Source of the DNA: Syntrophorhabdaceae bacterium
Lineage (GTDB): Bacteria; Desulfobacterota; Syntrophorhabdia; Syntrophorhabdales; Syntrophorhabdaceae
Assembly (NCBI GenBank): GCA_026415015.1
Contig: JAOAHW010000151.1
Location: 1 to 32,051 of the forward strand
DNA: 32,051 bases
Direction of reading: 5' to 3'
Part shown: piece after piece, positions 1-20,804 of the stretch
Position numbering within the stretch: the stretch's first letter is position 1
Layout: every line of letters begins with the position of its first letter
Made by a program: the position numbers and the translations under genes
The notes under the pieces: generated by a model
The model's database searches: none
What the model was told of the DNA's origin: nothing
Seen by the model: only the letters and a program-made list of their open reading frames with translations

Positions 1-837
1 CCTTATACTCTCCTCGTTCCTTTTAGGTTTCTCCACCAGAAAGGTAGGGGAGGCACTCCTTAGCATCCTGGGAGAGAAGACAAGCCCATCTACTGTAAGT
101 AGGGCAGCCCAGAGTTTTGGCCTTCCACAGAAGGAAGCTATCCAACAACTACAAGGCCCTTATCCTTGACGGAGTGGTACTTACCAGGAAGACAGGGGGA
201 GGGTCAATTAAAAGACCTGTCCTTGTTATCCTAGGGATACGCCATGACGGGAAGAAAGAGATCATCGACTTTAGGTGTGCATCCTAAAGAGAGTACAGAT
301 GAGTGGGAGGCATTTCTCGTTGATGCCATAAGAAGGGGACTTACAGGAGAAAAAATTGAGGTTATCTCTGTTGATGGAGGCAAGGGGCTTATAAATGCTG
401 TGCGTTCTGCCTATCCCCTTATCCCTATCCAGAGATGTTGGGCTCATAAGATGAGAAACATCCTTGATAAGGTAAAGAAAGGGGATCATAAGGCAGTGAA
501 GAAAGGCCTTGTGGCTATCTATACTGCAAAGAATATGAATGAGCCCCTAGTGCTGCAAAACAATGGATCACCACATGGAGTAATATATATCCCCAGGTGG
601 TAAAGTGTCTTAAAGAAGACCTTGATGAACTCTTAACTTGCTATGTCTTTACCGATCCTGTCTTCATAAGGAAGATAAGGACTACCAATGCCATAGAACG
701 TATCTTTCGTGAGGTGCTTAAGGAGAACAAGGCCCATGGGGGTCTTTGAGAACAGAGCAAGTATTGAACGGATACTCTATGCAGTATTCCTATATGAGAA
801 CATACGCTATGGGGCACACTATGTTTTTGGGTGCTGA
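1..837 (+). pseudogene. IS256/Mutator-family transposase remnant, frameshifted, 5' end outside window
   Basis: Fragments in different frames resemble IS256-family transposase: LILSSFLLGFSTRKVGEALLSILGEKTSPSTVSRA (from nt 2), ILDGVVLTRKTGGGSIKRPVLVILGIRHDGKKE, VISVDGGKGLINAVRSAYPLIPIQRCWAHKMRNIL (ORF 244-603), RKIRTTNAIERIFREVLKENKAHG, GVFENRASIERILYAVFLYENIRYG to a stop near 835. Frame changes near 155, 270, 550 and 735. Confidence 0.85.
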
Positions 838-1083: not shown

Positions 1084-2592
1084 CTATCCCTCTATCCTCC
1101 TCTGCTCTTTTTGAACAACTTCCTTTAGCCATGTCGCATTATCACCGTATGTAGTAATTACATCATAGTCAACCTTGAAGTTGTTAAGATATTGCATAGT
1201 GAGTGCATAGGGATACGGCATCATAGGGGTAAACCCTGCAATGAAAAAGCCCATAGATTCTGCATATTTCACGCACCATTGAACATTTGGATCCTCTAAA
1301 TCAACCACGAGGTTGATTACATCCACTTTCTCTCTACAGAGTCTCTTTTTTTCAAAGGCAAGGATATTGTTTATATTACTGCCAATTCTATCAATGAAAA
1401 TTAGTGCCATATTTATACTACTTAATATCCTTGTTGAGTAGGTGGTATTGGTTTCATGCCCGATGTGAGCAGAAACATCCATACTTATTAGTGCATCTAT
1501 CGACATATCCAATGTTTCAAATATCTTTGAAAGTGTTTCTTTATGCCAAGAAGGTGGATAAATCTTATCCATTTCAATGGGTTTCATAAATTTTAAAGAT
1601 ATAAATGTGCTTTCTCGCTGTTTTAGACGCTCGTGAATATTTCTAAACTTAAGGGTATCTGGTGCAAAACCGACAAACAAGGCTGTGGTCTTAAAACCAA
1701 ATCTTTCACATGTCTTTTGAGTAAAGGTATGATTTGTTACCGCATGGGCAAAGAATACTGATTGAGTCCTATTTTGCATCTCCTTTATGGCAAACTCAAG
1801 GAGTCTATTCATAAGCCCTTTGCCCCTGTAGGCTGGATCAACAACTACTACCCCCCACTCTACTGCCTGTGAGTCTGGGGCATCTTTCATTAACGCAAGA
1901 TGGCCTACAATCCTATTTGATGTGGTTACAGCGCCTATGGACTCAAAAAGACCTGATTGAAGTTTTGCCCTCAACCTATCAGGATAATAGATGTCCTCGT
2001 TTACATAACTTAAGCCATAACTCTTGTAAACAAGCCTTGAGATATTGATTGCATCATCAGGAGATAGCATCTTGATTTCTTTTATCTCCTCAACTACCTC
2101 TATCCTATATGGCTCTATCCTACCTTGCTCACTCTCTTGTATATCTTCTACATTTTCAAAGTGGATATTCCATTTTAGCTCAAAGACTATGCCCTCTTTC
2201 CCTCTGTTGATGAAATTATACTCATCAACAGATTCTTTTATCATATGCATAGATAATCCAGTGGCATCCTGTTCGGTCATTTCGATCAGTTTTGTGGGCT
2301 CATATTCTGGTAGTAAGGAGAGGTCAAAGGGCATCCCTTTGCTTATGAACTGCACCCTGAAGTGAGGAGGTTGACACCTTATATCAACCATTATATCTTC
2401 AGAGACATCATCACTGTAAGCAAGATTGAAAACCATCATAAATGCCTCTTCAATGTTTAGCCTTATGAAGACGATCTTTTCTTCGGTAATGCCTACTTTT
2501 CTGGCGATGTTTGAGGCGGCATCCTGGATAATGGATATACAGTGCTTATTAGGCGGGCAGGTTATTTTTATCCAAAGATTTTCTTTGCTCAT
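1084..2592 (-). CDS. RsbW/SpoIIAB-like HATPase domain fused to GNAT N-acetyltransferase
   Basis: 502-aa ORF. The N-terminus looks like an anti-sigma/serine kinase ATPase (NIEEAFMMVFNLAY..., DATGLSMHMIKESVDEYNFINRGKEGIVFELKW); the middle has a GNAT acetyl-CoA loop (VEWGVVVVDPAYRGKGLMNRLLEFAIKEM). Overlaps the upstream gene by 4 nt. Confidence 0.75.
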   Translation of the reverse strand: MSKENLWIKITCPPNKHCISIIQDAASNIARKVGITEEKIVFIRLNIEEAFMMVFNLAYSDDVSEDIMVDIRCQPPHFRVQFISKGMPFDLSLLPEYEPTKLIEMTEQDATGLSMHMIKESVDEYNFINRGKEGIVFELKWNIHFENVEDIQESEQGRIEPYRIEVVEEIKEIKMLSPDDAINISRLVYKSYGLSYVNEDIYYPDRLRAKLQSGLFESIGAVTTSNRIVGHLALMKDAPDSQAVEWGVVVVDPAYRGKGLMNRLLEFAIKEMQNRTQSVFFAHAVTNHTFTQKTCERFGFKTTALFVGFAPDTLKFRNIHERLKQRESTFISLKFMKPIEMDKIYPPSWHKETLSKIFETLDMSIDALISMDVSAHIGHETNTTYSTRILSSINMALIFIDRIGSNINNILAFEKKRLCREKVDVINLVVDLEDPNVQWCVKYAESMGFFIAGFTPMMPYPYALTMQYLNNFKVDYDVITTYGDNATWLKEVVQKEQRRIEG

Positions 2593-3857
2593 ATCTGATG
2601 TCTCTTGTCTATGAGATGGATGAGTTTCCCTGTCCTTTTGTTTGTTGCCAAACCTTCACTTGTCGTCCACTCTATGATTAGTGGATGAACTATGTCTCCT
2701 TTTATAAGGTCAGGAAACATGTGCCTTTCTTGGTATATTGCATTGGTTATTTTGTCGGATAAACCAGCGGGTATCTCTTTTGGTAAAGGCACTGCAATCA
2801 TAAGGGTGCATCTGTCTTTTTTATCCACATGGTCAATGATCAGCTGAAAATTAATATACCCTGTCTCATCCTTGAACCCCTCAAGTATTCTTCTAATGTC
2901 TTGGATATATAAGGTCATAGGTCCAACCCGGGCACCAACTTCAGAGCGTCCAAGGAGCCTATATCGTCTATTTGAGGTCGTAGGTTCATCAATCCACATG
3001 CCTCTATCACCTACAGGATAGCGGATGATAGGCATGAGCCTTCTTCTTAGATTGGTAATGTAGAGATTGCCTTCAATATTAGGTGTATCAATCACGTTGC
3101 CACTATCATCTATGATCTCAAGGATGGTGCTCTCATCATAGCAATGAAATTCACCAATTTTACAATCCTTGCTGACCCAACCCATTTCTCCGTAGTCAAC
3201 CCCTGCAATGCCTATAGATTGTACATGACAGTGAGGGATTATGCCCTTTATAAAGTCAACCTGGTCTTGATACATTGCCTCACCACCATAAAGTATTTTT
3301 TTTACATTCAACTTTTCTTTAGGCACATTTTTAAGGTGATTAAAGAGATTAACAATCGTTGTAGGCACACCTGCAATGGTATCTATCTTAAAAAGAATTA
3401 GGGCATCAATTATCTCATCCGTTGGTGCAAAGCCTGCTATGGGATAGTTGATCCCCACCCCTGCCTCTTCTAAACACTTTGTGATGAAAAGTAAAGATGC
3501 ATATAACTGACCTCCATAAAAGATATTTGCCACCTTCTCACCCCTTGATAGACCTCCACGCACCATACCATTGCCAAAGACCTTGCAGAAATTACGCCAA
3601 TCATCAACACTAAAATATGAAAATTTCGGTGCCCCAGTAGTTCCACCGCTTTTAAAGACAACACCATGTTCATGGCTACCTGTAAGGAGTGTGTTGTCTA
3701 AAGGGGTGTTGGCATTCCAAAAACCCGTCTGTTCCGTAAGGGGGAGTCTCTGTAAACCAGGGAAATCCTCTCCTTTTTTCCACACTTTATACCATAATTC
3801 TCGATAATACCTTGAATTATCAAGCACAAAGGTCAGATGTGACTTCAATATTTCCAT
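2589..3857 (-). CDS. PaaK-like adenylate-forming ligase (phenylacetate-CoA ligase family)
   Basis: 422-aa ORF with the P-loop-like motif FKSGGTTGAPKFSYFSVDDW, plus GVPTTIVNLFNHL, KKILYGGEAM, IIRYPVGDRGMW and YRLLGRSEVGARVG, typical of the PaaK/ANL group. Confidence 0.8.
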   Translation of the reverse strand: MEILKSHLTFVLDNSRYYRELWYKVWKKGEDFPGLQRLPLTEQTGFWNANTPLDNTLLTGSHEHGVVFKSGGTTGAPKFSYFSVDDWRNFCKVFGNGMVRGGLSRGEKVANIFYGGQLYASLLFITKCLEEAGVGINYPIAGFAPTDEIIDALILFKIDTIAGVPTTIVNLFNHLKNVPKEKLNVKKILYGGEAMYQDQVDFIKGIIPHCHVQSIGIAGVDYGEMGWVSKDCKIGEFHCYDESTILEIIDDSGNVIDTPNIEGNLYITNLRRRLMPIIRYPVGDRGMWIDEPTTSNRRYRLLGRSEVGARVGPMTLYIQDIRRILEGFKDETGYINFQLIIDHVDKKDRCTLMIAVPLPKEIPAGLSDKITNAIYQERHMFPDLIKGDIVHPLIIEWTTSEGLATNKRTGKLIHLIDKRHQI

Positions 3858-3864
3858 AAATTCC

Positions 3865-6396
3865 CTACCCCCTATGGTCGCATATTGGCTTTATTTTGCC
3901 ACTTGCAGATACCCTCTGGATTTCACTGTCAGATACTGCCTTGACCTTAAACTTAAAGGACAGACCACTACTTAGACAATACTCTAATTCACTGTAATCT
4001 TCCCTTAATACCTCTTGAGCCTTCTGTGGTGTTATGCCTGATGTATCTATAATCCACACCTCAAGCACAGTAAAGGCCCCTTCATTTTTGATGTGTATCT
4101 GCACAGGCCCTGTGTAATTAAGCTGATTATCAAGTATGTCCACAAACCTACGGTAGTTAAAAAACGGTCCCCCTGCCTTAAACACATCGCCTATCCTCCC
4201 TACAATCTCAAAGAGGGGGTCTTTGCGTCCACAGGGACATTCCTTATCAATCCACCTGCCTGTATCTCCAATCTCATAACGGAGGACCTGGGGATACTCC
4301 CGGGCCTTGGAGGTAAAAAGAAACCTTCCTACACTGTCTTTTTCCACTGGCTTGTCATTATCTAATTCCACTATCTCAAGGTGTTGTAATGAGCGTATAA
4401 GGTGATGTACAGTGCCTTTACAGTATTCACACTGATAGCCCATAGGTCCGGCATCGTTTGAGCCATAGGCGGCTGAGCGGATCACACTTACACCAAAGCC
4501 TTTTAAAAACTCGATCTGTGAGTCAGATATCCTCTCACCACCATAAAGGAACTTTGTAATCTTACCTTTTATGCTTTCACCATATGCGTTAAATAGCCCT
4601 AATATGTGTGATGGTGCACCTATTAATACATTTACATCGTTGTCAATGATTGCCTGGGCGATCTCTCCATAGTCCTCTATAAGTGCCATTGGTAGCAATG
4701 GGACCTTGAGATACTCAAGGATACTCCAAAAGCTGATAAAACCACCGTATAGGTGACCTGCAGCAAAGAGATTCATAACCCTGTCTTTTTCAGGATCAAG
4801 CCCTGCTGCCACAAGCCCATGGGCTGTTGTGTGCATCTGTAGATGATAATCATCCCAGGAAAACCGTGAATACACAGTCTGACCGCTTGAACCACCACTG
4901 CGGACTACAAGATCTGCGTCTCTTATTGCCATGGACCTTGCCTGAAACTCTTTTTTTGTAAGTATTGGAGGCCTATATGTATCAATATCAGTCGGGATCA
5001 ATGTATCAAACTCTGAGATGCTGCCAATGGAGGATGTATAAGGGGCATCGAGGGTCACCCTTTTTGTAAGTTGCTGGAGTTCATATACACCGTCATGGGG
5101 AGAGCCGATGTAGCTATCAACCATCTCACCAACCCTACAAATCCTTGTAACACCAGCACTATAAAAGAGCCTGCTTAGGGTAGCAAGGGATTTGACATCA
5201 GCTGCAAGCCCACAGCTTTGAAGCCATGCACGCATTGGTCTTAAGGTATCTAAAACCTCATTTCGTCTGATAGGCTTCACCCAAATAGTTCTATAAAGTG
5301 GCGATGGGCTTAAGCCTCCACGCATATCATAGATTACCCTGAACCTCCCTTCAGTATCCTCAAAGACCCTTGTGAGACCTAATGCCTCCTCTGCCCGTGC
5401 AACGGCTACCACTGAAGTAATCTCAGCCTGTTCAGAGGTATCAGGCATCTTTGCTGGGATTGTTGGGGCGATAGTTTTAAGCCTATCAAAGAGCATCTGA
5501 GCAAACCTGAATGCCTGCGCCTCATCTCTATCAATCTCTACAAACACAGTCTGAGGACTTGAACAAGCCTGTTGGTCAAGTCTACAGACATCACGGGCTA
5601 CACCAATGAGAATATCATCAAGGCTCTGTCGTGTGGGAGAGATGTTAGGGTCTTGAGGTTTAAAAATTTCATCTGCCACATAGCCAAAGGAAATCTTATG
5701 ACCCCAGACAATGAGCCTCACACCATCAGGGGTCATTGACTTAATCACACTAATTGCCTTCTCACCACCCCAAGCGGATATTGCATCAGCACAGCTGAAT
5801 AGTCTTTGTAATCTCTCTGGCTGTGAACTAGGGATCTTTACAACTGAGATGTAGTCTTTGAGAAGACCTGATGTATCTGACCTGCACAGAGTATCAGCAA
5901 ACAGGGCGGTAAAGTCTGAATCCTCTTCACTGAGTTTAACAATATTGATATTGCCCACTATTAATGATTCTACCAACCCCAAGGCCCCAACACTAAAGAT
6001 ATTCGCAGGCATCACATGGACAACACATCCCATTGGCATCCACGCCTCAAAGTATCTTGTTGGATAGAGCCTGCTAAGAAAGTTAGGATGAGAGGTGCCA
6101 AGCTCTAATCGAATCTTTTTCTTGAGATTTTTCTCCTCAAGCATCTCAGTAATGGCACCCATCATCACCTCTACATCTTCTGGGGTGGTAGTCTTTATTG
6201 CCTCATTGTAGAGGGCTTTGTAAATCCCATCCTTTTTCATCAAACTTTCGTTAAGCGTCTTTAAGGCATGCATCAGACACTCAAAAGGAAAGGGCTTTGA
6301 AAGGGTCTTTGAGATATGGTTATTTAGTGTTGAAATAGCATCATCTAACTGTTTATCAGTAAGCCATTGGTTAAACCAAAAGTGTCTTTTTATCAT
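3865..6396 (-). CDS. LuxC-like acyl-CoA reductase fused to PaaK-like adenylate-forming ligase
   Basis: 843-aa ORF. N-terminal half: LuxC/aldehyde dehydrogenase-like, with active-site Cys context RDVCRLDQQACSSPQTVFVE and WGGEKAISVIK. C-terminal half: VRSGGSSGQTVYSRFSWDDY, LIGAPSHILGLFNAYG, KFLYGGERISDSQ, LRYEIGDTGRWIDKECPCGRKDPLFEIVGRIGDVFKAGG. Confidence 0.85.
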   Translation of the reverse strand: MIKRHFWFNQWLTDKQLDDAISTLNNHISKTLSKPFPFECLMHALKTLNESLMKKDGIYKALYNEAIKTTTPEDVEVMMGAITEMLEEKNLKKKIRLELGTSHPNFLSRLYPTRYFEAWMPMGCVVHVMPANIFSVGALGLVESLIVGNINIVKLSEEDSDFTALFADTLCRSDTSGLLKDYISVVKIPSSQPERLQRLFSCADAISAWGGEKAISVIKSMTPDGVRLIVWGHKISFGYVADEIFKPQDPNISPTRQSLDDILIGVARDVCRLDQQACSSPQTVFVEIDRDEAQAFRFAQMLFDRLKTIAPTIPAKMPDTSEQAEITSVVAVARAEEALGLTRVFEDTEGRFRVIYDMRGGLSPSPLYRTIWVKPIRRNEVLDTLRPMRAWLQSCGLAADVKSLATLSRLFYSAGVTRICRVGEMVDSYIGSPHDGVYELQQLTKRVTLDAPYTSSIGSISEFDTLIPTDIDTYRPPILTKKEFQARSMAIRDADLVVRSGGSSGQTVYSRFSWDDYHLQMHTTAHGLVAAGLDPEKDRVMNLFAAGHLYGGFISFWSILEYLKVPLLPMALIEDYGEIAQAIIDNDVNVLIGAPSHILGLFNAYGESIKGKITKFLYGGERISDSQIEFLKGFGVSVIRSAAYGSNDAGPMGYQCEYCKGTVHHLIRSLQHLEIVELDNDKPVEKDSVGRFLFTSKAREYPQVLRYEIGDTGRWIDKECPCGRKDPLFEIVGRIGDVFKAGGPFFNYRRFVDILDNQLNYTGPVQIHIKNEGAFTVLEVWIIDTSGITPQKAQEVLREDYSELEYCLSSGLSFKFKVKAVSDSEIQRVSASGKIKPICDHRG

Positions 6397-6400
6397 TGTT

Positions 6401-7567
6401 TCATCTTCCTTTCAAAAATTCTGCCGCTGCCATTGCACAGCTCTTATTCGTAGATGTCCCTGCCCTGCCTAATATCTCAAACCATGCCGTGGGGTATTCT
6501 TTTAGGGGACATGATTGAGCTGTGTGTTTGACTGCCATATCTCCCATGACCACACTATGAGCAGGCACTGATGTTATATATGGAGAAAGAAATGATAAAA
6601 ACCCCTTCTGACCGTCAGGCACTGGCTTTAGGGTCTTAACATCCCTGATGATAACCCTTGACCATACGGGTTGGTGTAGATGATGCATCGGACAGTCAAT
6701 GTATGGGATGCTGTGTTCCACAGAACCGTAACTTTCTACAATATTTTGAGACTCAATGCCCAATTGGTTTTGTATCTGCTCATAAAACTGTGCCTTTGGG
6801 ATTTCCCTGTCAGCATACCCCTTCCATCCGCCACCGAAGAAGATAAGGCTCCCTCTTGGCAATTTTAAGTCTTTGAAGTTTATCTCACGCATCCTCTCAA
6901 GGATGAAGTATAAAAAGGCTGGAAAGCCCATGATACGCACAGGTTTGTCTTCATATTGCCATTTTTTAAGTGTCTCAATACATCCAAAGAGGTCAAAATC
7001 GTGCCTGCCGCCACCAATATAACGAAGTGACCAAAACTGCCCTGCCACAGGCGCATACTTCATAAGGTAGCTATTAGTATTTGATGTCCCCACCTCAAAG
7101 CCTTCGTAGGGCTCATAGGCGTTCATCAGGTAATTTGCCGGCTCAACACTGATGACACCACGATATTTCATAACTGTATCCACCATATCCCTTGCCTTTG
7201 TAATGGTGAATTCATCAAAAAATATCTGAGACCTTTGACCTGTAGTACCAGAGGAGGTCAGGTGAAGAAAGACCTGTGAGGCATGTATTGACCTAATCTC
7301 ATGGTATTTAAAGAAATTAGCATGCACAGGCGGTATAGCAATCAAATCATCCATGGTCTTGATTTTGTCAGGTTTAATGTCATTTTGCCTTGCAAACTCC
7401 CTATACCACGGTGAGTGGTCAATATGAAGTGATATCACATCCCGCATTACCTCGATAAAAAGACTATCCGTATTTTCATCTGTTTCATAAGGACTGTCTA
7501 AACTGCAGAATTTAATTACCGATTGAGGGATAATGCTATCCACTGGTTTTAATGGTTCACTTATCAT
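6401..7567 (-). CDS. LuxE-like acyl-protein synthetase
   Basis: 388-aa ORF with FLHLTSSGTTGQRSQIFFDEFT, LIFFGGGWKGYADREIPKAQFYE, ESYGSVEHSIPYIDC and a C-terminal Cys region (GRAGTSTNKSCAMAAAEFL) resembling LuxE. Confidence 0.85.
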   Translation of the reverse strand: MISEPLKPVDSIIPQSVIKFCSLDSPYETDENTDSLFIEVMRDVISLHIDHSPWYREFARQNDIKPDKIKTMDDLIAIPPVHANFFKYHEIRSIHASQVFLHLTSSGTTGQRSQIFFDEFTITKARDMVDTVMKYRGVISVEPANYLMNAYEPYEGFEVGTSNTNSYLMKYAPVAGQFWSLRYIGGGRHDFDLFGCIETLKKWQYEDKPVRIMGFPAFLYFILERMREINFKDLKLPRGSLIFFGGGWKGYADREIPKAQFYEQIQNQLGIESQNIVESYGSVEHSIPYIDCPMHHLHQPVWSRVIIRDVKTLKPVPDGQKGFLSFLSPYITSVPAHSVVMGDMAVKHTAQSCPLKEYPTAWFEILGRAGTSTNKSCAMAAAEFLKGR

Positions 7568-7601
7568 GGCTTATTTCCTTTGAAACTTAAAAATTTTTAT
7601 A

Positions 7602-8813
7602 TTACCCCTTCTTTATCATCACATTCCAATACTCTCTATCAGGGTCAATGTGTAGGAAGCCAAACTCTTGGGCGCATTCAAGGATGAAAAAGACTATAAA
7701 GATGATGAACATGACAATTGCCAGCATCTTTTGCCTTGATGTGTTTGCCTTTTTATACGCAATCAGGCTTGGCAGTATGCCAAATAAAGACACAATCCCA
7801 AAGCCCCCCACTATATCCATAGCCTTTAAAAAGATGTTTGGATAGACGATCGCAATGATTATTGGTGGTCCAAAGGCAAGGAGTCTGCTTGCTAATGGGT
7901 TTGTTCTACCTGTCTGTTGATAACTTAAATCATCCATAAAACCAATAAGCGCCATAACATTTGAAAGATAGGCTGTGCTTATTGAAACTGCTGCAAATCC
8001 TGTAGCTAAAAGCAAGAAAAGTCGCGAGTTCAAAAACTCTGACATCGGCACTGTAGCGGGTAGATTTTCTTTGAATGCGTGGATAATCCCTACAGAACTA
8101 TTGTCCATCGGTAAAACCCCTAATGTTACTATTATCCAAGATGTATTCATCGCAAGACCAATCAACATGCCTACAATAATTGCCCTTTTAATGGCAACTG
8201 CATCCCACTTCAATGACTGACATACATTAGGGATTATATTATGAAAATGAAAGGCACCAATCATAATTGGTATGCCTGCCGGGAAGAAAGGCCAGTAGGA
8301 ATATGCAAGATTATTGATATCTACTTTTAACTCTGCCATAAAACAGATTATGGCAAAGGCAACACACTTCACCACAACAAGCACTGCAATGTATTTTTGG
8401 ATCGTCTGTATTTTAAAAAATGTGATGATGGTAATAATTGAAAAATAGCCAAGGCTTACCCATATTGGAGGGATTGTCAGATGAAATGTATTTATCACAA
8501 TAGTAGCAATAGCGGTTAGATAAGCAGTGAGTATGCCGTAAAGGATTATGAGATTTGCTAATATGGCTATCCATTTCCCTAAATTACCTAAATAGCTCTT
8601 ATACAAACTCGGGTAGTTGAAGTTGTCCAGCTTTTGTTCAAGCGCCTCTCTGCTAAGCACAAAGGCACTGAGTAACATTGCAAACCCTGTTAATAACAGA
8701 CCAATCATTGTGGGCATAAATCCAGCAATCCCTGTTGAGATAGGCAATGCAAGTATGCCTACGCCTACAAGATTACCCACTATCAACAGTGACATGCCAA
8801 AGATTTGTTTCAT
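7602..8813 (-). CDS. amino acid permease, tryptophan/tyrosine (HAAAP-like) family
   Basis: 403-aa hydrophobic multi-TM ORF. The N-terminus MKQIFGMSLLIVGNLVGVGILALPISTGIAGFMPTMIGLL resembles Mtr/TyrP-type permeases; HFHNIIPNVCQSLKWD also fits. Confidence 0.75.
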   Translation of the reverse strand: MKQIFGMSLLIVGNLVGVGILALPISTGIAGFMPTMIGLLLTGFAMLLSAFVLSREALEQKLDNFNYPSLYKSYLGNLGKWIAILANLIILYGILTAYLTAIATIVINTFHLTIPPIWVSLGYFSIITIITFFKIQTIQKYIAVLVVVKCVAFAIICFMAELKVDINNLAYSYWPFFPAGIPIMIGAFHFHNIIPNVCQSLKWDAVAIKRAIIVGMLIGLAMNTSWIIVTLGVLPMDNSSVGIIHAFKENLPATVPMSEFLNSRLFLLLATGFAAVSISTAYLSNVMALIGFMDDLSYQQTGRTNPLASRLLAFGPPIIIAIVYPNIFLKAMDIVGGFGIVSLFGILPSLIAYKKANTSRQKMLAIVMFIIFIVFFILECAQEFGFLHIDPDREYWNVMIKKG

Positions 8814-9329: not shown

Positions 9330-10556
9330 ATGAAAATAATATTTACATTTATTTGTTGCCTTATTTTATTTACTACCACCTTTGCCTTGGCAACGGATGT
9401 TGAAATCGGTGAAGCAAAGGCTCGGCTCGTCTCGGCTGATGATTCCCGCACCCATGTCAATTTCTTCGTTGATCCTGCTCCGAAGACAAAAATCGTTGAT
9501 TTAAACCCGCCAAATAGGCTGTTTTTCAAGGTCGTCTATCAAGTCCAGGACGACAGCAGGTTCGCTGGCGCAAGTCAAAGGGCTTATGCTGCCTTTAAGG
9601 CCTATGACTTAACGACCTTTAAATGGATAGAGCCTGGTCAACTGATAAGCCAGGATGGCGGAGATCTATATGCAGGAATATATAATCATCATGGTACGTG
9701 GACAATTTTTCCAACATTCACAGGGAACATCACAAGATACTATGGCAGGCTTTACGCAAAGACCAAAGGCCATGACAAGACCAGAGAGCGTATCTTTTAC
9801 ATAGCCAATAAGCCCATCAACTCAGCGATAACCCAGATACAACAATCAGCTGCACCTAAATGGATTGCCAACCGATATGAGAATGCAATCAACATGATGC
9901 ACCTCAGGGAGGCGCTCAGGAAGATGGCAGCACCTGACTTAAACATCAATTTCAATGCCGAGATGCTTGAGCTGTTAGTGAGCACCGCTGGACTCATTGC
10001 GCCGACAACGCCTGTGGACTACGCCAAGGACTCAGGTATGGAAATCTTAGGCCTTGTAACAACCCTGTATACCTCACCCTACATTGCAAACGCTGTGAGC
10101 GGTGCGAGCGAGATAATAAATGCCTATCAATACATTAAATGGGCACAGCAGACACTCCAAAACTCTTTTAACAAGTTCTTTGACGTCTACAATAGTTTTA
10201 TTATTAAGAGTAGTCTGGACGGAGCAGACTCACTTATAATCGCGATGCAACAGGCAGCGAACGCAATGGTCGCAGAAGGAAAGGCGCTTGAAGCCTATGT
10301 ATATAGCACAAATGACCCAATAAAATTGTCCCAGTGGAAGGCTGCGCTAAAGGCTGAACGTGATGCCATATATAATGTAGCAGCCAAGTCGTTCCAGCTG
10401 GAGCAGAGTGCAACGACTTACTTCTTTACTCAAGGGAACGAACCATATAAATATTTAGGGGATCAGAAGGTCTATCCTTTCCTACAGACTATAAATAAGT
10501 TGGCCCTTATGGATTATTTAGTTCTTGATAAGGTGGTAAAAACAGGGGGGTTTTAA
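9330..10556 (+). CDS. secreted/periplasmic protein of unknown function
   Basis: 408-aa ORF beginning with a signal peptide (MKIIFTFICCLILFTTTFALA). No recognised domain. Confidence 0.7.
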   Translation: MKIIFTFICCLILFTTTFALATDVEIGEAKARLVSADDSRTHVNFFVDPAPKTKIVDLNPPNRLFFKVVYQVQDDSRFAGASQRAYAAFKAYDLTTFKWIEPGQLISQDGGDLYAGIYNHHGTWTIFPTFTGNITRYYGRLYAKTKGHDKTRERIFYIANKPINSAITQIQQSAAPKWIANRYENAINMMHLREALRKMAAPDLNINFNAEMLELLVSTAGLIAPTTPVDYAKDSGMEILGLVTTLYTSPYIANAVSGASEIINAYQYIKWAQQTLQNSFNKFFDVYNSFIIKSSLDGADSLIIAMQQAANAMVAEGKALEAYVYSTNDPIKLSQWKAALKAERDAIYNVAAKSFQLEQSATTYFFTQGNEPYKYLGDQKVYPFLQTINKLALMDYLVLDKVVKTGGF

Positions 10557-10705: not shown

Positions 10706-12526
10706 ATGTGCGGAATAGTGGGTTATCAGGGCAGAAGTGAGGCCTTCAGTATACTAATTGATGCCTTAAAGAGACTTGAATACAGGGGTTATGATTCTGC
10801 AGGCATTGCCATATGGCACGATAGAACCATAGAGAAAATAAGGAGGAAGGGTAAGGCTGATGACCTGAGAAAGGCTGTCTCAGAAAAAAAGATAAAAGGG
10901 ACAATGGGGCTTGCCCACACAAGATGGGCTACCCATGGTATACCATCAGAGCGAAATGCCCATCCCCACAGGGCAGGAGATGTAGTTGTTGTCCATAATG
11001 GCATAATAGAAAATTATATGGAGATCAAGGAGAGGCTAAAAAAACAGGGACGAAAGTTTACATCAGATACAGATACAGAGGTGATACCCCATCTAATAAA
11101 CAGCTATATTGAAAAAGGAGAGGGTTTTATTGATGCAGTAAGGCTCGCCATTAGAGAGCTTGAGGGCTCTTATGCCCTGGGCATCATGAGGCAGCAGGAG
11201 AGGGTATTGATTGCTGCCAAGAAGGAGAGCCCTCTTATTGTTGGTGTTGTAGATGGCGAATCCATATTTGCCAGTGATGCCCCTGCCATAATTGACATGA
11301 CCAACAGACTCATATTCCTTGAGGATAATGATATTGTGATATTTAAAGACAGTGGTTTCACGATTATGGATATGGATGGCAAAGAGATAAATCGGAAGGT
11401 CCATGCTGTAAACTGGACAGGTGCCATGGCCCAGAAGGGCGGATTTAAACACTTTATGCTCAAGGAGATACATGAACAACCAAGGGCAATAACAGAGACC
11501 CTTATGGGAAGGGTAAGGGAGGAGAAGGCAGAGGTAGATTTTGATGAACTAAAACTCCCTGATGTGAAAGATATAAAAAAAATCTGGATGGTGGCCTGCG
11601 GCACATCTTATCATGCCTGCCTTATAGGAAAGTATATCTTTGAGTCATCCTTAAGGATACCTGTGGAGACGGATATAGCCTCTGAATTTAGATACAGGGA
11701 GCCTATTATAGACCCCAGCGACATGTTAATCCTTGTATCCCAGTCAGGGGAGACAGCAGATACAATAGCAGCAATGAAGGAAGGTAAAAGAAGCGGTGCC
11801 TATACACTGTCTATATGTAATGTTCTTGGCAGTACCCTGGCAAGGGAATCTGATGGTGTAATATTTACCCATGCAGGACCTGAGATAGGTGTGGCATCAA
11901 CAAAGGCATTTACAACCCAGATATCTGTTCTATTTATGCTCATGCTCCATATGGGTAGACTCTTGGGCGTATTGGATAAAGAGACCGTAAGGGAAAAGAT
12001 TGTTGAATTTAAAAAGATACCCCATAAGATCCAGTCAATACTCAATAATGCCCAGAAGATAGAGGAGTTGGCAAGGCGCTTTATGACATACAAAAACTTC
12101 CTTTATATTGGTAGGGGTATAAACTACCCATCCATGATGGAAGGGGCACTAAAATTGAAGGAGATATCATATATCCATGCCGAGGCATATGCTGCCGGCG
12201 AGATGAAACACGGTCCCATTGCCTTGATAGATGAGAGCCTACCTGTTGTTGTCCTTTCTCCTCATGACAGGACATACCAGAAGACATGCAGTAACATAGA
12301 GGAGGTATTTGCAAGGAGGGGCAAGGTAATACTATATACAGATACCCCTGACCATGAGATGGCAGATAGGGCAGATTCTATCTTTGTCATGCCCAAGACA
12401 ATATATGAATTGCAGCCCCTTTTATCTGCAGTTCCACTGCAACTGCTGGCATATAATATAGCGAATCTATTGGGTACAGATGTAGACCAGCCCAGGAATC
12501 TTGCCAAGAGTGTCACTGTAGAATAA
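10706..12526 (+). CDS. glmS: glutamine--fructose-6-phosphate aminotransferase (isomerizing)
   Basis: 606-aa ORF: MCGIVGYQGRSEAFSILIDALKRLEYRGYDSAGIA, LAHTRWATHGIPSERNAHPH, two SIS domains (ACGTSYHACLIGKY; SQSGETADTIAAM), C-terminal PRNLAKSVTVE. Confidence 0.98.
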   Translation: MCGIVGYQGRSEAFSILIDALKRLEYRGYDSAGIAIWHDRTIEKIRRKGKADDLRKAVSEKKIKGTMGLAHTRWATHGIPSERNAHPHRAGDVVVVHNGIIENYMEIKERLKKQGRKFTSDTDTEVIPHLINSYIEKGEGFIDAVRLAIRELEGSYALGIMRQQERVLIAAKKESPLIVGVVDGESIFASDAPAIIDMTNRLIFLEDNDIVIFKDSGFTIMDMDGKEINRKVHAVNWTGAMAQKGGFKHFMLKEIHEQPRAITETLMGRVREEKAEVDFDELKLPDVKDIKKIWMVACGTSYHACLIGKYIFESSLRIPVETDIASEFRYREPIIDPSDMLILVSQSGETADTIAAMKEGKRSGAYTLSICNVLGSTLARESDGVIFTHAGPEIGVASTKAFTTQISVLFMLMLHMGRLLGVLDKETVREKIVEFKKIPHKIQSILNNAQKIEELARRFMTYKNFLYIGRGINYPSMMEGALKLKEISYIHAEAYAAGEMKHGPIALIDESLPVVVLSPHDRTYQKTCSNIEEVFARRGKVILYTDTPDHEMADRADSIFVMPKTIYELQPLLSAVPLQLLAYNIANLLGTDVDQPRNLAKSVTVE

Positions 12527-12529
12527 TTT

Positions 12530-13912
12530 TTATTGACGGGAAAAAAGCTCCATCTGTTCCATGTCCATGGCCCTGGGAAAGGGTATAAAGTAATCACCAG
12601 TAAAACAGGCATCACAGAAGGTATAATCGCCTCCATCAAGGGCATCCTTCATCTCCTCTACTGTGAGGTACCTCAAGGAATCACACTGCATATATGTTTT
12701 GATGTCTTCTACAGTATGGGAAGAGGCAATAAGCTGTTTCCTCGATGGTGTATCAATACCGTAGAAACAGGGATACTTTGTAGGGGGTGAGCTTACCCTG
12801 AAATGGATCTCCCTTGCCCCGTAATATCGCAGCATGGATATAATCTTTCTTGAGGTGGTAGCCCTCACTATGGAGTCATCTATGACAACGAGTTTCTTGC
12901 CTTTTACCAGGTCATGGATGGCATTGTGCTTGAGCTTTACTCCAAAGTGTCTTATAGATGGTTCAGGCTCAATAAATGTCCTTCCAACGTAGTGATTCCT
13001 TATTAAACCGAGTTCAAAGGGTATACCTGATGCCTGTGAATAACCAATAGCAGCTCCTATCCCTGAATCAGGTATAGGTATTACCATATCTGCTTCAACA
13101 GTATCTCCTTTTGCAAGCCCCCTGCCGAATGCCTTTCTTATTGTATAGACAGTCCTTCCAAACATAAAGCTGTCAGGTCTTGCAAAATATATATATTCAA
13201 AGATGCAGTGTTTTCTTGGCACTTTTTTAAAAGGAAAGAGGCTATGGGTACCTTTTTCATTTATCACCAGTATCTCCCCTGGTTCTATCTCCCTTAAAAA
13301 CTCTGCCTCTATCAGGTCAAAGGCACAGCTCTCACTGGATATGATGTGTGAATCCTTTAGCCTTCCAAGACACAAAGGTCTTATCCCGTATGGGTCTCTT
13401 GCAGCTATTAGCTCGTTCGGGGTAAGGAGGACTAAGGAATAAGAGCCCTCAATGGTATTTAGTGCACCTGTAAGCCTATCTGCAGTATTCCTCTCCTTAG
13501 ACCTTGCTATGAGATGGACTATTACCTCTGTGTCAGTGGTGGTCTGGAATATAGAACCTGAGTCCCTCAGGTCATCCCTTATGATTCGGGCATTGGTGAG
13601 ATTTCCATTGTGAGCCAGTGCAAGGTGTCCTTTTAGATATTCAACTACAATGGGTTGGGAATTCTTTAGATCACTTGAGCCTGCTGTAGAGTATCTTACA
13701 TGGCCAATGGCATTAGTCCCCTGTAATGTTTTTAATACATCCGCTGTAAATACATCAGATACAAGCCCCATCTGTTTATGGAGGTGTACTGTGTTTTCAT
13801 CAAAGCATGCTATCCCAGCGCTCTCCTGTCCCCTGTGCTGGAGCGCATAGAGTCCAAGATAGGTTATATTTGCTGCATCTTTATGGTTATAAATCCCAAA
13901 TATCCCACACAT
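12530..13912 (-). CDS. purF: amidophosphoribosyltransferase
   Basis: 460-aa ORF: MCGIFGIYNHKDAANITYLGLYALQHRGQESAGIA, IFEYIYFARPDSFMFGRTVY, PRPP motif KLVVIDDSIVRATTSRKI, CDACFTGDY. Confidence 0.98.
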   Translation of the reverse strand: MCGIFGIYNHKDAANITYLGLYALQHRGQESAGIACFDENTVHLHKQMGLVSDVFTADVLKTLQGTNAIGHVRYSTAGSSDLKNSQPIVVEYLKGHLALAHNGNLTNARIIRDDLRDSGSIFQTTTDTEVIVHLIARSKERNTADRLTGALNTIEGSYSLVLLTPNELIAARDPYGIRPLCLGRLKDSHIISSESCAFDLIEAEFLREIEPGEILVINEKGTHSLFPFKKVPRKHCIFEYIYFARPDSFMFGRTVYTIRKAFGRGLAKGDTVEADMVIPIPDSGIGAAIGYSQASGIPFELGLIRNHYVGRTFIEPEPSIRHFGVKLKHNAIHDLVKGKKLVVIDDSIVRATTSRKIISMLRYYGAREIHFRVSSPPTKYPCFYGIDTPSRKQLIASSHTVEDIKTYMQCDSLRYLTVEEMKDALDGGDYTFCDACFTGDYFIPFPRAMDMEQMELFSRQ

Positions 13913-14140
13913 CTTAAGAGGTCTTCCATAGGAGATTTATCAATGTTCTCATAAACGAGACCTTTGCAAGAGTCTCAGTGCTTTTATGCATGAATGTCCC
14001 ACCAACATTATTTTACACTATTACTTCTTTTGGGCAAATATAGATTTTATGAAATTTTTATGCAAAAAAAAGACCAGAGAGACCTTTTCATAAGGCCTAA
14101 AATTTGCAAAGTTCTTATGTTGTTGATTTGGAATGTTTAA

Positions 14141-15754
14141 ATGACTATACTAAGTGGACTGGATATGGATACAAAAACAGTAACCATCCTCGATTATGGT
14201 GCAGGTAATGTAAGGAGTGTTATAAATGCAGTAACACGACTTGGCTATAAAATAAAACTCGTCAAATCACCTTTTGATCTAAAAGAGGCTGAGATACTCA
14301 TCTTCCCTGGTGTTGGGTCATTTGGGGAGATGATGAAGACCCTGAAAGATAAAAACCTCATAGAGCCACTTCTTACATATCTTAGTTCAGGGAGGCCATA
14401 TCTCGGTATATGTCTTGGGCTCCAGGCACTCTTTGAATATAGCGATGAATCCCCTGGGATCCCTGGCCTTGGTTTTTTAAAAGGCAGGGTGAGGAGATTA
14501 AATACCAGCTTCTCTATACCCCATATAGGCTGGAATGGCATAAAACCAAAAAAGGCCTCTAAGTTATTTAATTCCTTGAGTGGCAATGAGTATCTATATT
14601 TTGTCCACTCTTATGTGGTTGACCCACAGGATAAGACATGTATCCTCACCACAACAGATTATGGAGAGGAATTTGTAAGCTCTGTTGAGGTAGGTAATGT
14701 AATGGCCACCCAATTCCACCCAGAAAAAAGTGGAGATGTGGGCTTGACGATACTGAAAAACTTCCTTGAGGATGGTATAAGTCCAGTTATCCCTGACTCT
14801 GCGTTAGAGACCACAACCCTTGTAAAACGTATAGTAGCATGTATGGATGTGAGAGAGGACGATGAGGGTAGGCTCGTTGTTACAAAGGGAGACCAGTACG
14901 ATGTAAGGGATACCAGGACAGGGCAGGTAAGGGATCTGGGCAGTCCTGTAAAGCTGGCACAGAGGTATTATGAAGAGGGGGCAGACGAGATTGCATTTTT
15001 AAATATAACAGGTTACAGGAATTTCCCCCTTCTCAATCTCCCCATGCTCGATGTATTGAAGGAGACATCTTTGAATGTCTTTGTCCCTTTAACCATCGGT
15101 GGTGGCATAACATCATACACTGATGAAGAAGGTAGATATTATTCTGCCCTTGATGTGGCATCTGCATATTTCAGGTCAGGGGCAGACAAGATATCTATAG
15201 GTAGCGATGCAGTCCTCATTGCAGAGCAGTTTTTGCAATACGGCATAAGGGGTAACACATCCATAGAAGAGATATCAAGGGTCTATGGTAATCAGGCTGT
15301 AGTTATATCCATTGACCCTAAAAGACATTATGAATCCTCTCCCCACGGTGTCCCTCACCATTTGATAGTCACAGATGAGCCAGGCCCGAATGGAGAGAGA
15401 TACTGCTGGTTTCAGTGTTTCATAAAGGGTGGCAGGGAACCAAGAGATATAGATGCCATAACCCTTGCAAGGATATGTGAGGAACTCGGTGCAGGAGAGA
15501 TACTCTTAAACTCCATTGATAGGGATGGGACAAATTTAGGTTTTGACCTGGAGCTTATAAAGGCAGTATCTGAGCATGTAAGTATCCCTGTCATTGCCTC
15601 AAGCGGTGCAGGTAGCCCTGCTCACTTTCTTGAGGTATTCGAGAAAACAAAAGCTGAGGCAGCCCTGGCCGCAGGTATATTGCACCGAGGCGAGACAACA
15701 ATAAAAGAGATAAAAGGACACTTATCAGGGAAGGTAAAGGTAAGATATTACTAA
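14141..15754 (+). CDS. hisHF: bifunctional imidazole glycerol phosphate synthase (HisH-HisF fusion, eukaryotic HIS7-like)
   Basis: 537-aa ORF. HisH part: ILDYGAGNVRSVINAV, FPGVGSFGEMM, YLGICLGLQALF, ATQFHPEKSGDVG. HisF part: KRIVACMDVREDDEGRLVVTKGDQYDVRDTRTGQVRDLG, FVPLTIGGGI, RSGADKISIGSDAV, LLNSIDRDGTNLGFDLELI, PVIASSGAG. Translation may start at ATG 14165. Confidence 0.95.
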   Translation: MTILSGLDMDTKTVTILDYGAGNVRSVINAVTRLGYKIKLVKSPFDLKEAEILIFPGVGSFGEMMKTLKDKNLIEPLLTYLSSGRPYLGICLGLQALFEYSDESPGIPGLGFLKGRVRRLNTSFSIPHIGWNGIKPKKASKLFNSLSGNEYLYFVHSYVVDPQDKTCILTTTDYGEEFVSSVEVGNVMATQFHPEKSGDVGLTILKNFLEDGISPVIPDSALETTTLVKRIVACMDVREDDEGRLVVTKGDQYDVRDTRTGQVRDLGSPVKLAQRYYEEGADEIAFLNITGYRNFPLLNLPMLDVLKETSLNVFVPLTIGGGITSYTDEEGRYYSALDVASAYFRSGADKISIGSDAVLIAEQFLQYGIRGNTSIEEISRVYGNQAVVISIDPKRHYESSPHGVPHHLIVTDEPGPNGERYCWFQCFIKGGREPRDIDAITLARICEELGAGEILLNSIDRDGTNLGFDLELIKAVSEHVSIPVIASSGAGSPAHFLEVFEKTKAEAALAAGILHRGETTIKEIKGHLSGKVKVRYY

Positions 15755-15902
15755 TGTTGTCTCGATGCAGGCCACGATTTTAATGATTCTTCATCCTTTT
15801 ATCCCATGTTATCTGTGGCAATATTTTTTATTAGCATGAAAGACCTTTGGAGACCATCAAGGCAAATAAGACAGGCATAAATCTCCAGCAAAACCGTGTT
15901 AT

Positions 15903-15930
15903 ACAATTTTGTCATTATCTACAATTTTGT
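15903..15930. promoter_or_regulatory. two direct copies of ACAATTTTGT, candidate activator (UAS) site
   Basis: ACAATTTTGT at 15903-15912 and 15921-15930, 18 bp apart, about 70-100 bp upstream of the start predicted from the sigma-54 site at 15975-15990. Confidence 0.4.
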
Positions 15931-15974
15931 TACAAAAAAACCTGGTTATCCTGGTCTTAATCCTTTTATGACTG

Positions 15975-15990
15975 TGGCATTACTTTTGCT
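15975..15990 (+). promoter_or_regulatory. candidate sigma-54 promoter
   Basis: TGGCATTACTTTTGCT: GG-N10-GC with near-consensus TGGCA...TTGCT. Confidence 0.6.
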
Positions 15991-16003
15991 TATTCATTTT
16001 TGT

Positions 16004-16267
16004 ATGGAGACATCGGCAAAGATAATATTTCTAAACAGAAAAAACCTCAATGTAGGTAACAAGAATATTGAAAGCCATGGTCTAAGAGATACTACCTGGG
16101 ACGATATCAGTACTGTCCTTACAAATGCCCAACATCAGATAAAAAAGATAGAAGAGGAATGGGAGATTGACCACAACAAGGTAACCTTGAGGGATGAAAT
16201 ACATCTCATGCGTTTTTATCTTAATCTGCTCATAGCCCACCTTAAAGATAATAAGACCACTGATTAA
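16004..16267 (+). CDS. small hypothetical protein; true start uncertain
   Basis: In-frame part of ORF 15896-16267 downstream of the sigma-54 site. The C-terminal half is hydrophilic and helix-prone (WDDISTVLTNAQHQIKKIEEEWEIDHNKVTLRDEIHLMRFYLNLLIAHL). No clear ribosome-binding site at 16004. Confidence 0.35.
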   Translation: METSAKIIFLNRKNLNVGNKNIESHGLRDTTWDDISTVLTNAQHQIKKIEEEWEIDHNKVTLRDEIHLMRFYLNLLIAHLKDNKTTD

Positions 16268-16279
16268 TACAACTGCAAC

Positions 16280-16295
16280 TGGCATAACAATTGCT
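16280..16295 (+). promoter_or_regulatory. candidate sigma-54 promoter for amidotransferase-glnA
   Basis: TGGCATAACAATTGCT: GG-N10-GC, 60 bp upstream of the start at 16356. Confidence 0.7.
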
Positions 16296-16355
16296 TAAAA
16301 GTGTTTATGGAGCTTTTATGATGCACAGTAAAATTTTAAATATAAGGCAGGTAAT

Positions 16356-17045
16356 ATGACTGCTTTAATTATAAAGAATACCCCTGATGAGGGGCCAGGG
16401 AATCTATTGTGTTTTTTTAGATCCCACGGGATCGATTATGAGATAATAGAGGCATATATGGCTAAAAAAATAAATATCTCAGATAGCTGTAGATACCTGG
16501 TTATCCTGGGCGGACCTATGGGTGTCTATGAAATGGATAGATACAGTCACCTGAAAATAGTGGCCAGGGCCATAGAACGTGCCCTTAAAAGGGAGATTAA
16601 GATACTCGGCATATGCCTGGGCGCCCAGCTTTTTGCCCATGTCTTAGGGTCAAGGGTCTATAAAGGCCCATACGAGGAGATAGGCTGGTGCCATATAGAT
16701 ATTACCCAATCAGGGCTATGTGACTTTTGTTTCAGTAAATTTGCAGGGGAACAGGGAAATGGTAAGGTCTTTCAATGGCATCACGATACCTTTGACCTTC
16801 CAGGTGGTGCAACAAGGCTTGCATCCTCTTCCTGTTATCCCCAACAGGCCTTTAGATATAAAGATTCCTATGGCATCCAGTTTCACCCAGAGATTACAAC
16901 AGAGATGGTGCTGGAGTGGTTTAAGGATAGGGGAGATTTAACAGATATAATAAATGACACAGATCTGCTGTATTATTCGTATAGATTGAAGGCAAGGCTT
17001 TTTTACAGTGCATTTTTTAATGGATTGAACGATGCTTTTTTGTGA
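16356..17045 (+). CDS. stand-alone class I glutamine amidotransferase (GMP synthase-like)
   Basis: 229-aa ORF with LVILGGPMGVYE, nucleophile elbow ILGICLGAQLFAHVLG, FQWHHDTFDLP, YGIQFHPEITTEMV. Confidence 0.9.
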   Translation: MTALIIKNTPDEGPGNLLCFFRSHGIDYEIIEAYMAKKINISDSCRYLVILGGPMGVYEMDRYSHLKIVARAIERALKREIKILGICLGAQLFAHVLGSRVYKGPYEEIGWCHIDITQSGLCDFCFSKFAGEQGNGKVFQWHHDTFDLPGGATRLASSSCYPQQAFRYKDSYGIQFHPEITTEMVLEWFKDRGDLTDIINDTDLLYYSYRLKARLFYSAFFNGLNDAFL

Positions 17046-17080
17046 TGAAAGGGTCAAATAAATTAAACAAGGAGGAAAAT

Positions 17081-18412
17081 ATGGAAAGACCAAGAGACAA
17101 ACAGGATGTGATGAAGCTCTTAAAGGAAAAGGATGTGCGGTTTATAAGGTTCTGGTTCTGCGATATACTTGGCCAGCTAAAAAGCTTTGCCATCCATGTG
17201 GATGAACTGGAGGTTGCCTTTGAGGAGGGCATGGGCTTTGATGGCTCATCTATCAAGGGTTTTGCCCGAATTGATGAGAGCGATATGGTGGCTATCCCTG
17301 ACCCAAAGACATTTACCCTTATCCCCTGGAGGCCAAAGGAAAAGGCAACAGCAAAGATGTTCTGTGATATATATGAACCTGACGGAAGCCCATATAAAGG
17401 CGACCCTCGATACGCCTTAAAAAAGGCCCTGGAAAAGATGAAGGCTATGGGATTTACAAACTACTATCTCGGGCCAGAGCTTGAGTTCTTCTATTTTAAG
17501 TCAGACAATGCCACAGAGATACTCGATAAAGGTGGTTATTTTGATTATCCCGCTGATGCTGCAGAGGACCTAAGAAGGGATACCATACTTGCCCTTGAGG
17601 AGATGGGTGTGGCGGTTGAGTATTCACATCATGAGGTGGCACCATCACAGCACGAGATAGATCTGAGATACACCGATGCCCTTGAGATGGCAGATACAGT
17701 TATGGCATACAGGGTCACAGTAAAAGAGATAGCAAAGAAATACGGTGTTTATGCCACTTTTATGCCAAAACCCATATTCGGTGAAAACGGCAGTGGCATG
17801 CATACCCACCAGTCTCTTTTCAAGGGAGATAAAAATGCATTCTTCAACGCCACGGATAAATACCATCTTTCTGAAGATGCAAAGGCATTTACAGCAGGGC
17901 TGCTCACCCATATCAGAGAGATAACCCTTGTCCTCAATCAGTGGGTCAATTCATATAAAAGGCTCGTCCCTGGTTATGAGGCCCCTGTGTATATCTGCTG
18001 GGCAAGGAGAAACCGCTCTGCCCTGGTTAGGGTGCCCATGTATAAACCTGGCAAGGAAAAGGCAACAAGGATAGAGCTTAGATCCCCTGACCCTGCATGT
18101 AACCCATATCTTGCATTCGCCGCCATGCTCCATGCAGGTCTAAAAGGTATAGAAAATAAATACCCACTACCTGAACCTACTGAAGTGGATGTATATCATC
18201 TTGCCCCTGAACAGAGACAGGGCATGGGTATAAATGAGCTACCTGGTAGTCTTATCGAGGCCATAGAATTAGCTGAAAAAAGTGAACTCCTGAAAGAGGC
18301 CTTAGGAGAGCATATATTCAATGAGCTTATCCAGAGCAAGAAGGTCGAGTGGGATGACTATAGGATAAGGATACAACCTTATGAGCTGGAACGCTACCTA
18401 CCCATAATCTAA
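17081..18412 (+). CDS. glnA: glutamine synthetase, type I
   Basis: Within ORF 17042-18412; ATG 17081 is preceded by AAGGAGG, giving 443 aa plus stop. Motifs: FWFCDILGQLKSF, MGFDGSSIKGFARIDESDM, GPELEFFYF, FMPKPIFGENGSGMHTHQSL, NSYKRLVPGYEAP, ELRSPDPACNPYLAFAAML. Confidence 0.98.
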   Translation: MERPRDKQDVMKLLKEKDVRFIRFWFCDILGQLKSFAIHVDELEVAFEEGMGFDGSSIKGFARIDESDMVAIPDPKTFTLIPWRPKEKATAKMFCDIYEPDGSPYKGDPRYALKKALEKMKAMGFTNYYLGPELEFFYFKSDNATEILDKGGYFDYPADAAEDLRRDTILALEEMGVAVEYSHHEVAPSQHEIDLRYTDALEMADTVMAYRVTVKEIAKKYGVYATFMPKPIFGENGSGMHTHQSLFKGDKNAFFNATDKYHLSEDAKAFTAGLLTHIREITLVLNQWVNSYKRLVPGYEAPVYICWARRNRSALVRVPMYKPGKEKATRIELRSPDPACNPYLAFAAMLHAGLKGIENKYPLPEPTEVDVYHLAPEQRQGMGINELPGSLIEAIELAEKSELLKEALGEHIFNELIQSKKVEWDDYRIRIQPYELERYLPII

Positions 18413-18443
18413 TCAGAGTTTTTTCATACATAACCCCCCCATT

Positions 18444-18468
18444 CTGGTCCCGTGCATAGCGGGACCAG
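18444..18468 (+). terminator. hairpin downstream of glnA; possible terminator
   Basis: Perfect 9-bp stem CTGGTCCCG-TGCATAG-CGGGACCAG, 32 bp after the glnA stop. No strong U-tract follows. Confidence 0.5.
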
Positions 18469-18495
18469 CCCCTCTTTACTATTGGGATATAGCCC

Positions 18496-18524
18496 TTGAC
18501 GTCTGAAGTTTTCCTTTATAAAAT
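18496..18524 (+). promoter_or_regulatory. candidate promoter for higBA
   Basis: TTGACG (18496-18501), 17-nt spacer, TAAAAT (18519-18524); a TTTATAAAATTTATAAAAT repeat overlaps the -10 region. Confidence 0.45.
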
Positions 18525-18540
18525 TTATAAAATTTGTCAG

Positions 18541-18822
18541 ATGATAAAATCATTCAAAGACAGGGAGGCAGAGAGAGTATATACTCGTGAAGGGTCGAAC
18601 AAATTGCCAAAGGAAATTCAACAAGTTGCATTAAGGAAATTGCGTATGATAAACAATGCAAAAAATATTAATGACCTTAGGATACCACCAGCTAATAGGC
18701 TTGAAAAATTAAAAGGCACACGTGAGGGTCAATACAGTATCAGGATCAATGACCAATGGCGTATCTGTTTTATATGGGAACAAACTGATGCCTATGATGT
18801 AGAAATAACTGATTATCATTAA
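18541..18822 (+). CDS. higB: HigB/RelE-family toxin
   Basis: MIKSFKDREAERVYTREGSNKLPKEIQQVALRKLRMINNAKNINDLRIPPANRLEKLKG...QYSIRINDQWRICFIW is typical HigB. ATG 18541 is in frame with ORF 18496-18822. Confidence 0.93.
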   Translation: MIKSFKDREAERVYTREGSNKLPKEIQQVALRKLRMINNAKNINDLRIPPANRLEKLKGTREGQYSIRINDQWRICFIWEQTDAYDVEITDYH

Positions 18823-18831
18823 GGAGAGATT

Positions 18832-19134
18832 ATGAAAAAAAAACTTAATCCTGTTCACCCTGGAGAGGTTCTTTTAGAAGAATTCCTTAAGCCAATGGGT
18901 ATAAGTCAAAATAAATTGGCTTTAAATATTGGGGTGTCACCTAAGAGGATTAACGAGATTGTCCTTGGCAAGAGGGGGGTTACTGCTGATACTGCCTTGA
19001 GGCTTGCAAGATTCTTTGGGACATCAGCAGAATTCTGGCTTGGACTTCAATCACAGTATGACCTTGATATCGCTGCTGAAGAACTCGGTGAAAGGTTAGA
19101 TAAAGAAGTAAAGACATATGCAAATGCCTTATAG
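18832..19134 (+). CDS. higA: HigA-family antitoxin (HTH)
   Basis: 100-aa ORF NPVHPGEVLLEEFLKPMGISQNKLALNIGVSPKRINEIVLGKRGVTADTALRLARFFGTSAEFWLGLQ, directly after higB. Confidence 0.94.
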   Translation: MKKKLNPVHPGEVLLEEFLKPMGISQNKLALNIGVSPKRINEIVLGKRGVTADTALRLARFFGTSAEFWLGLQSQYDLDIAAEELGERLDKEVKTYANAL

Positions 19135-19142
19135 AGATCACA

Positions 19143-20645: not shown

Positions 20646-20659
20646 TAACCATTTTTATA

Positions 20660-20688
20660 ACATATTTGTAAAAAAATTACAATTTTGT
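20660..20688. promoter_or_regulatory. paired ACATATTTGT / ACAATTTTGT motifs, candidate activator site
   Basis: ACATATTTGT 20660-20669 and ACAATTTTGT 20679-20688, 19 bp apart, about 85-113 bp upstream of the start predicted from the sigma-54-like site at 20747. Confidence 0.4.
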
Positions 20689-20746
20689 TTTAAAGCCCTG
20701 TAAATTGGAAAGCAAAAAAACCTAATGATTTTATGATGTTACTGAA

Positions 20747-20762
20747 TGGCACAGTATTTGAT
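20747..20762 (+). promoter_or_regulatory. candidate sigma-54 promoter for outer-membrane protein gene
   Basis: TGGCACAGTATTTGAT: consensus -24 (TGGCAC); -12 has GA instead of GC at the right spacing. Confidence 0.5.
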
Positions 20763-20804
20763 TTAAGAATAGACATTTTTATTACAAACCCAGGAGGTGC
20801 TTTT

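Follow-up and report, generated by a model that had tools for sequence, protein, structure and literature searches.

Which product is made by an operon that encodes LuxC- and LuxE-like proteins together with additional ligases and no luciferase? This question is raised by five tightly packed minus-strand open reading frames (ORFs) at positions 1084–8813 of the window, which here means the whole 32,051-nucleotide stretch of DNA analyzed. The ORF coordinates confirm the arrangement described in the initial annotation, and its domain assignments are borne out by Pfam and NCBIfam, with gaps of 34, 4, and 7 nt between the permease, LuxE-like, fusion, and PaaK-like genes and a 4-nt overlap between the PaaK-like and HATPase-GNAT genes. 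The permease (7602..8813, minus strand, 403 amino acids) belongs to the Trp/Tyr (HAAAP) family (Pfam Trp_Tyr_perm, 8.4e-51) and has about 10 hydrophobic segments in its hydropathy profile. On the same strand lie a LuxE-like acyl-protein synthetase (6401..7567; Pfam LuxE, 9e-39); a fusion (3865..6396; Pfam LuxC, 3e-90, plus a weak AMP-binding match) of a LuxC-type reductase (approximately residues 59–445) and an AMP-forming ligase (approximately residues 480–843); a stand-alone PaaK-like AMP-forming ligase (2589..3857); and a HATPase-GNAT protein (1084..2592; Pfam HATPase_c_2, 3e-9, and Acetyltransf_1, 8e-10) in which an N-terminal RsbW-like HATPase domain (residues ~20–140) is followed by a GNAT domain (~172–315) and a C-terminal region. 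No luciferase (luxA/luxB) or luxD family was found with Pfam among the window ORFs scanned, in agreement with the initial annotation, and light production is not supported. Promoter and terminator scans gave matches no better than those obtained with shuffled sequence.

A possible answer comes from the biosynthesis of leupeptin (acetyl-Leu-Leu-argininal), a protease inhibitor that is a short capped peptide with an aldehyde end. Li et al. (2020) reportedly traced leupeptin in Gammaproteobacteria to leupABCD, an operon that does not encode a nonribosomal peptide synthetase (NRPS). Three papers that cite Li et al. 2020 place leupABCD in the Klebsiella oxytoca complex, Photorhabdus, and Xenorhabdus (PMC8283571, PMC11480411, PMC11212599). 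In this non-NRPS pathway, separate AMP-dependent ligases generate the amide bonds and a reductase generates the aldehyde (PMC11212599). The leup cluster of K. oxytoca CAV1374 is located at CP011636.1 315,353–321,183 with a transporter adjacent to it, and the published primers leupA_f and leupB_r give a product of 1,235 bp (PMC8283571).

The reference genus was located by core_f, a flanking-gene primer of the K. oxytoca complex, and a LuxE relative was present in two of its genomes. At locus L128 (the same place as L126), leupA_f and leupB_r both matched with 0 mismatches and delimited a product of exactly 1,235 bp, and the cluster measured 5,837 bp compared with the published 5,831 bp. Among the loci compared, the next-best primer match, in a relative of L128 (L125/L127), had six mismatches, and no other locus came near; the identity of L128 as the published leup cluster rests on this primer match. 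Since leupA_f falls about 52 nt inside the LuxE-like gene of L128 and leupB_r inside its LuxC-ligase fusion, LeupA is the LuxE-like protein and LeupB the fusion, and from the gene order in L128, LeupC is the PaaK-like ligase and LeupD the GNAT protein. An assignment of LeupA as an ATP-grasp enzyme, which came from reading the leupA primer as the start codon, was dropped because the primer sits inside the LuxE gene. Searches for leup in E. coli genomes and in viral contigs found none.

Measured against L128, the LuxE-like protein of the window shares 47% identity with LeupA (373 amino acids), the fusion 37% with LeupB (836 amino acids), the stand-alone ligase 34% with LeupC (411 amino acids), and the GNAT domain, to which this alignment is limited, 28% with LeupD (149 amino acids). 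The gene order LuxE, LuxC-ligase, ligase, GNAT is identical in the window, in L128, and in the Salmonella plasmids. In a quick tree of LuxE proteins, the window falls inside a leup set of 50 rows that also contains L128 and Streptomyces roseus ATCC 31245; this set is separated from a Streptomyces europaeiscabiei plasmid locus (L135) with moderate support (SH-aLRT 80) and from more distant rows with an SH-aLRT of 95. The closest relative is the Thermodesulfovibrionales MAG L008 (88% in the fusion), from which the window most likely derives from a member of the Nitrospirota. In the LuxE tree, the two group with Alcaligenaceae and Comamonas (five rows, SH-aLRT 100).

The residues expected of these enzymes are also in place. 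In the LuxE-like protein, C377 is conserved across both the leup rows (50/50) and the other LuxE rows (9/9) and lines up with the cysteine near the C terminus of the LuxE structure PDB 7xc6_E (5.9e-26), and the LuxC motif DQQACSS of the fusion, which contains the catalytic C278, aligns with DQQACFS of LuxC in PDB 7xc6_A (3.9e-17). Invariant in the alignment of relatives are the SGGSSG motif, D711, and K834 of the fused ligase domain and the SGGTTG motif, GD283-284, and K411 of the stand-alone ligase. Four acidic residues are specific to the leup clade when compared with other LuxC/LuxE proteins (E117 and E143 in the fusion, D190 and D291 in LuxE), and it is only suggestive that they could bind a basic side chain.

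The likeness to leupABCD thus comprises the four core genes, their order, the unusual LuxC-ligase fusion, the catalytic cysteines, and the ligase motifs, with no NRPS involved. In our reading, to which we assign a probability of about 0.86, the operon is of the leupeptin (leupABCD) type and directs the non-NRPS synthesis of a short peptide aldehyde with an N-terminal cap, which most likely acts as a protease inhibitor. The initial annotation had stated that prior description of the same five genes as a characterized pathway would count against its proposal, and this is largely the case: four of the five correspond, in kind and order, to the published leupABCD set. The locus would represent a new branch of a characterized system rather than an unknown aromatic-aldehyde pathway.

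In the pathway that we propose, (i) the LeupD-like GNAT protein would acylate the N-terminal amino acid and so provide the cap, (ii) the C-terminal domain of LeupB and LeupC would convert carboxyl groups to adenylates and form two amide bonds, (iii) LeupA would adenylate the C-terminal carboxylate and hold it as a thioester on C377, and (iv) the LuxC domain of LeupB would take the acyl group onto C278 and, using NAD(P)H, reduce it to the aldehyde. Either amino acid building blocks or the product would be the cargo of the permease. We infer this division of labor among the enzymes, as well as the tripeptide length, the amino acids used, and the role of the permease. The expected product, a short capped peptide whose C terminus is an aldehyde, resembles antipain, MAPI, and livipeptin, whereas those compounds are made by an NRPS with a reductase domain or by a tRNA-using transferase (PMC10548850).

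The initial annotation had proposed that a carboxylic acid, possibly aromatic or amino acid derived, is activated and reduced to an aldehyde with possible acetylation. The match to the leup pathway supports the activation and reduction, and the possible acetylation and the amino acid origin of the substrate are also supported, but neither its identity as an aromatic acid nor a CoA ligase role for the two PaaK-like proteins is. A pathway in which CoA ligases activate a free carboxylic acid, aromatic or otherwise, which is then reduced to an aldehyde while the product is acetylated, would agree with the PaaK-like ligases and the Trp/Tyr-type permease, and with the known conversion of acids to aldehydes by the LuxC/LuxE pair. 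However, the similarity of the ligase parts to PaaK and DVU1553-type AMP ligases lies far under the family cut-offs (for the PaaK equivalog TIGR02155, 59 bits vs a cut-off of 646); they are orthologous to the ligases of the leupeptin pathway, and the entire gene set and its order fit leup, leaving the aromatic-acid pathway very improbable. Because this set and order match leup and the producer S. roseus carries the same set, the predicted "CoA ligases," as the two PaaK-like proteins were first labeled, most likely form peptide bonds. Fatty-aldehyde or lipid synthesis of the lux type in a role other than light production would likewise explain the LuxC and LuxE domains, and in luxCE (PDB 7xc6) the acyl group is also adenylated and cysteine-held by LuxE and then reduced by LuxC. 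Nevertheless, the window proteins are distant in sequence from those of 7xc6 (the alignment values given above), luxD and luxAB were not found among the window ORFs scanned, the two extra ligases and the GNAT protein are absent from lux operons, and the window LuxE groups with leup, so that we regard a lux-type role as extremely improbable.

A reading closer to leupeptin biosynthesis is that the operon belongs to the leup family and has as its main product a signal rather than a protease inhibitor, such as a pyrazinone formed after cleavage and cyclization of the peptide aldehyde. Activation of leup in K. oxytoca leads to leupeptin and to an Arg-Leu pyrazinone with signaling effects (PMC11480411). 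This pyrazinone, however, lies downstream of the same peptide aldehyde, and no companion protease was identified adjoining the window operon; a signal as the main product therefore seems unlikely to us.

Full-length copies of the fusion were found on plasmids of Salmonella and Streptomyces and at 80 loci of public genomes, and the LuxE, fusion, ligase, and GNAT genes were clustered at nearly every locus fetched (Actinomycetota, Pseudomonadota, and Nitrospirota), which argues that the gene set is not a chance grouping; the co-occurrence that the initial annotation had suggested looking for thus extends across several phyla. The order LuxE, fusion, ligase, GNAT was found in Salmonella, in Klebsiella-type and other Enterobacterales, and in Burkholderiales, as in the window. 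Streptomyces leup-like clusters have the same four enzymes and a transporter, whereas most are ordered ligase, MFS, GNAT, LuxE, fusion, and the GNAT protein is without a HATPase domain where checked (L005). Leupeptin of Streptomyces is attributed to NRPS genes. S. roseus ATCC 31245, which has been employed as a leupeptin producer (PMC10548850), carries the leup-type gene set (L064).

Several further loci carry related genes in other combinations. Two other Nitrospirota genomes (L130:4316-13456 and L131:4654-13813) hold a diverged sister cluster of HATPase-GNAT, MFS, an extra ligase-like ORF of 454–458 amino acids, a PaaK-like ligase, LuxE, and a LuxC-ligase fusion; with one ligase beyond leup, this cluster perhaps makes a longer peptide. 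On the S. europaeiscabiei plasmid NZ_CP109155.1 (L135:6277-10483), LuxE and LuxC directly follow MBL-fold and DUF692 genes with YcaO nearby, possibly forming a RiPP cluster whose C-terminal aldehyde would be the work of LuxE/LuxC; a literature search on this gene combination found no match. Pairs of LuxE and LuxC without a fused ligase are present on a Chloroflexota plasmid (CP069395, L133) and on an unverified fecal phage scaffold (MT835565, L134). The Salmonella plasmids CP053407.1 and NC_019126.1 contain remnants of leupA that are truncated to 44% of its length (~90% identity), which suggests that the plasmid-borne leup operon decays.

The window operon differs from leupABCD in its permease, in the RsbW-like HATPase domain attached to the GNAT protein, and in the divergence of its proteins (34–47% identity for LeupA/LeupB/LeupC). 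The leup loci of Klebsiella-type genomes carry an MFS transporter, which in L128 (MFS_1) lies upstream of leupA; the window has the Trp/Tyr-family permease in that place instead of an adjacent MFS transporter, and no relative of this permease was found in the 80+ other loci scanned. Since the core genes of L108 and of two Salmonella plasmid loci lack an immediately adjacent transporter gene, the transporter is counted as accessory and not as defining. The HATPase-GNAT build is the same in L108 and L011 and related in L130, and the RsbW-like domain is shared with Burkholderiales. In the window protein, the N-box and the first glycine-box residues look substituted when the alignment is read by eye, and because the ATP-binding motifs look degraded, kinase activity of this domain is doubtful.

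Horizontal transfer appears to have brought in the operon. None of the 38 family relatives searched has the fusion; in the congener G003, the window sequence is syntenic from ~10,695 rightward (84%), and to the left glmM-like and glmU-like genes (named by eye from sequence) occupy the operon's place, while the congener G002 also has different genes left of glmS. Together with the betaproteobacterial placement and a Mutator-family transposase fragment beside the operon (244..603, plus strand; Pfam Transposase_mut, 8e-18), these differences argue for horizontal gain, and the fragment is possibly linked to it. Adjoining the operon, the window also encodes a divergent 408-amino-acid protein with a signal-like start (9330-10556), for which there was no Pfam match and no counterpart in the two congeners searched. 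Farther to the right (10706-29811) is a nitrogen-metabolism cluster with glmS, a purF-like glutamine amidotransferase, glutamine synthetase, an ammonium transporter, glutamate synthase parts, a carbamoyl-phosphate synthase small chain, and a HisH-HisF fusion.

The identities of LeupB (37%), LeupC (34%), and the GNAT domain (28%) are low enough to allow a different cap and different amino acids, and the Trp/Tyr-type permease hints at an aromatic residue in the product. To our knowledge, no such product has been described from any Nitrospirota. We tentatively suggest that a new peptide aldehyde with residues unlike those of leupeptin (e.g., aromatic ones) is made in a Nitrospirota lineage and that the RsbW-like domain regulates the pathway, a proposal whose chances we put at well below even. 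For an odd gene set, the leup assignment provides a concrete and testable identity, and it would extend the range of leupeptin-type pathways to Nitrospirota and Burkholderiales. It also draws attention to the leup-type cluster of S. roseus ATCC 31245, although Streptomyces leupeptin has been ascribed to an NRPS. More broadly, the LuxE/LuxC pair would act as a portable peptide-to-aldehyde module, and diverged ligases of the leup type may be a source of new protease inhibitors.
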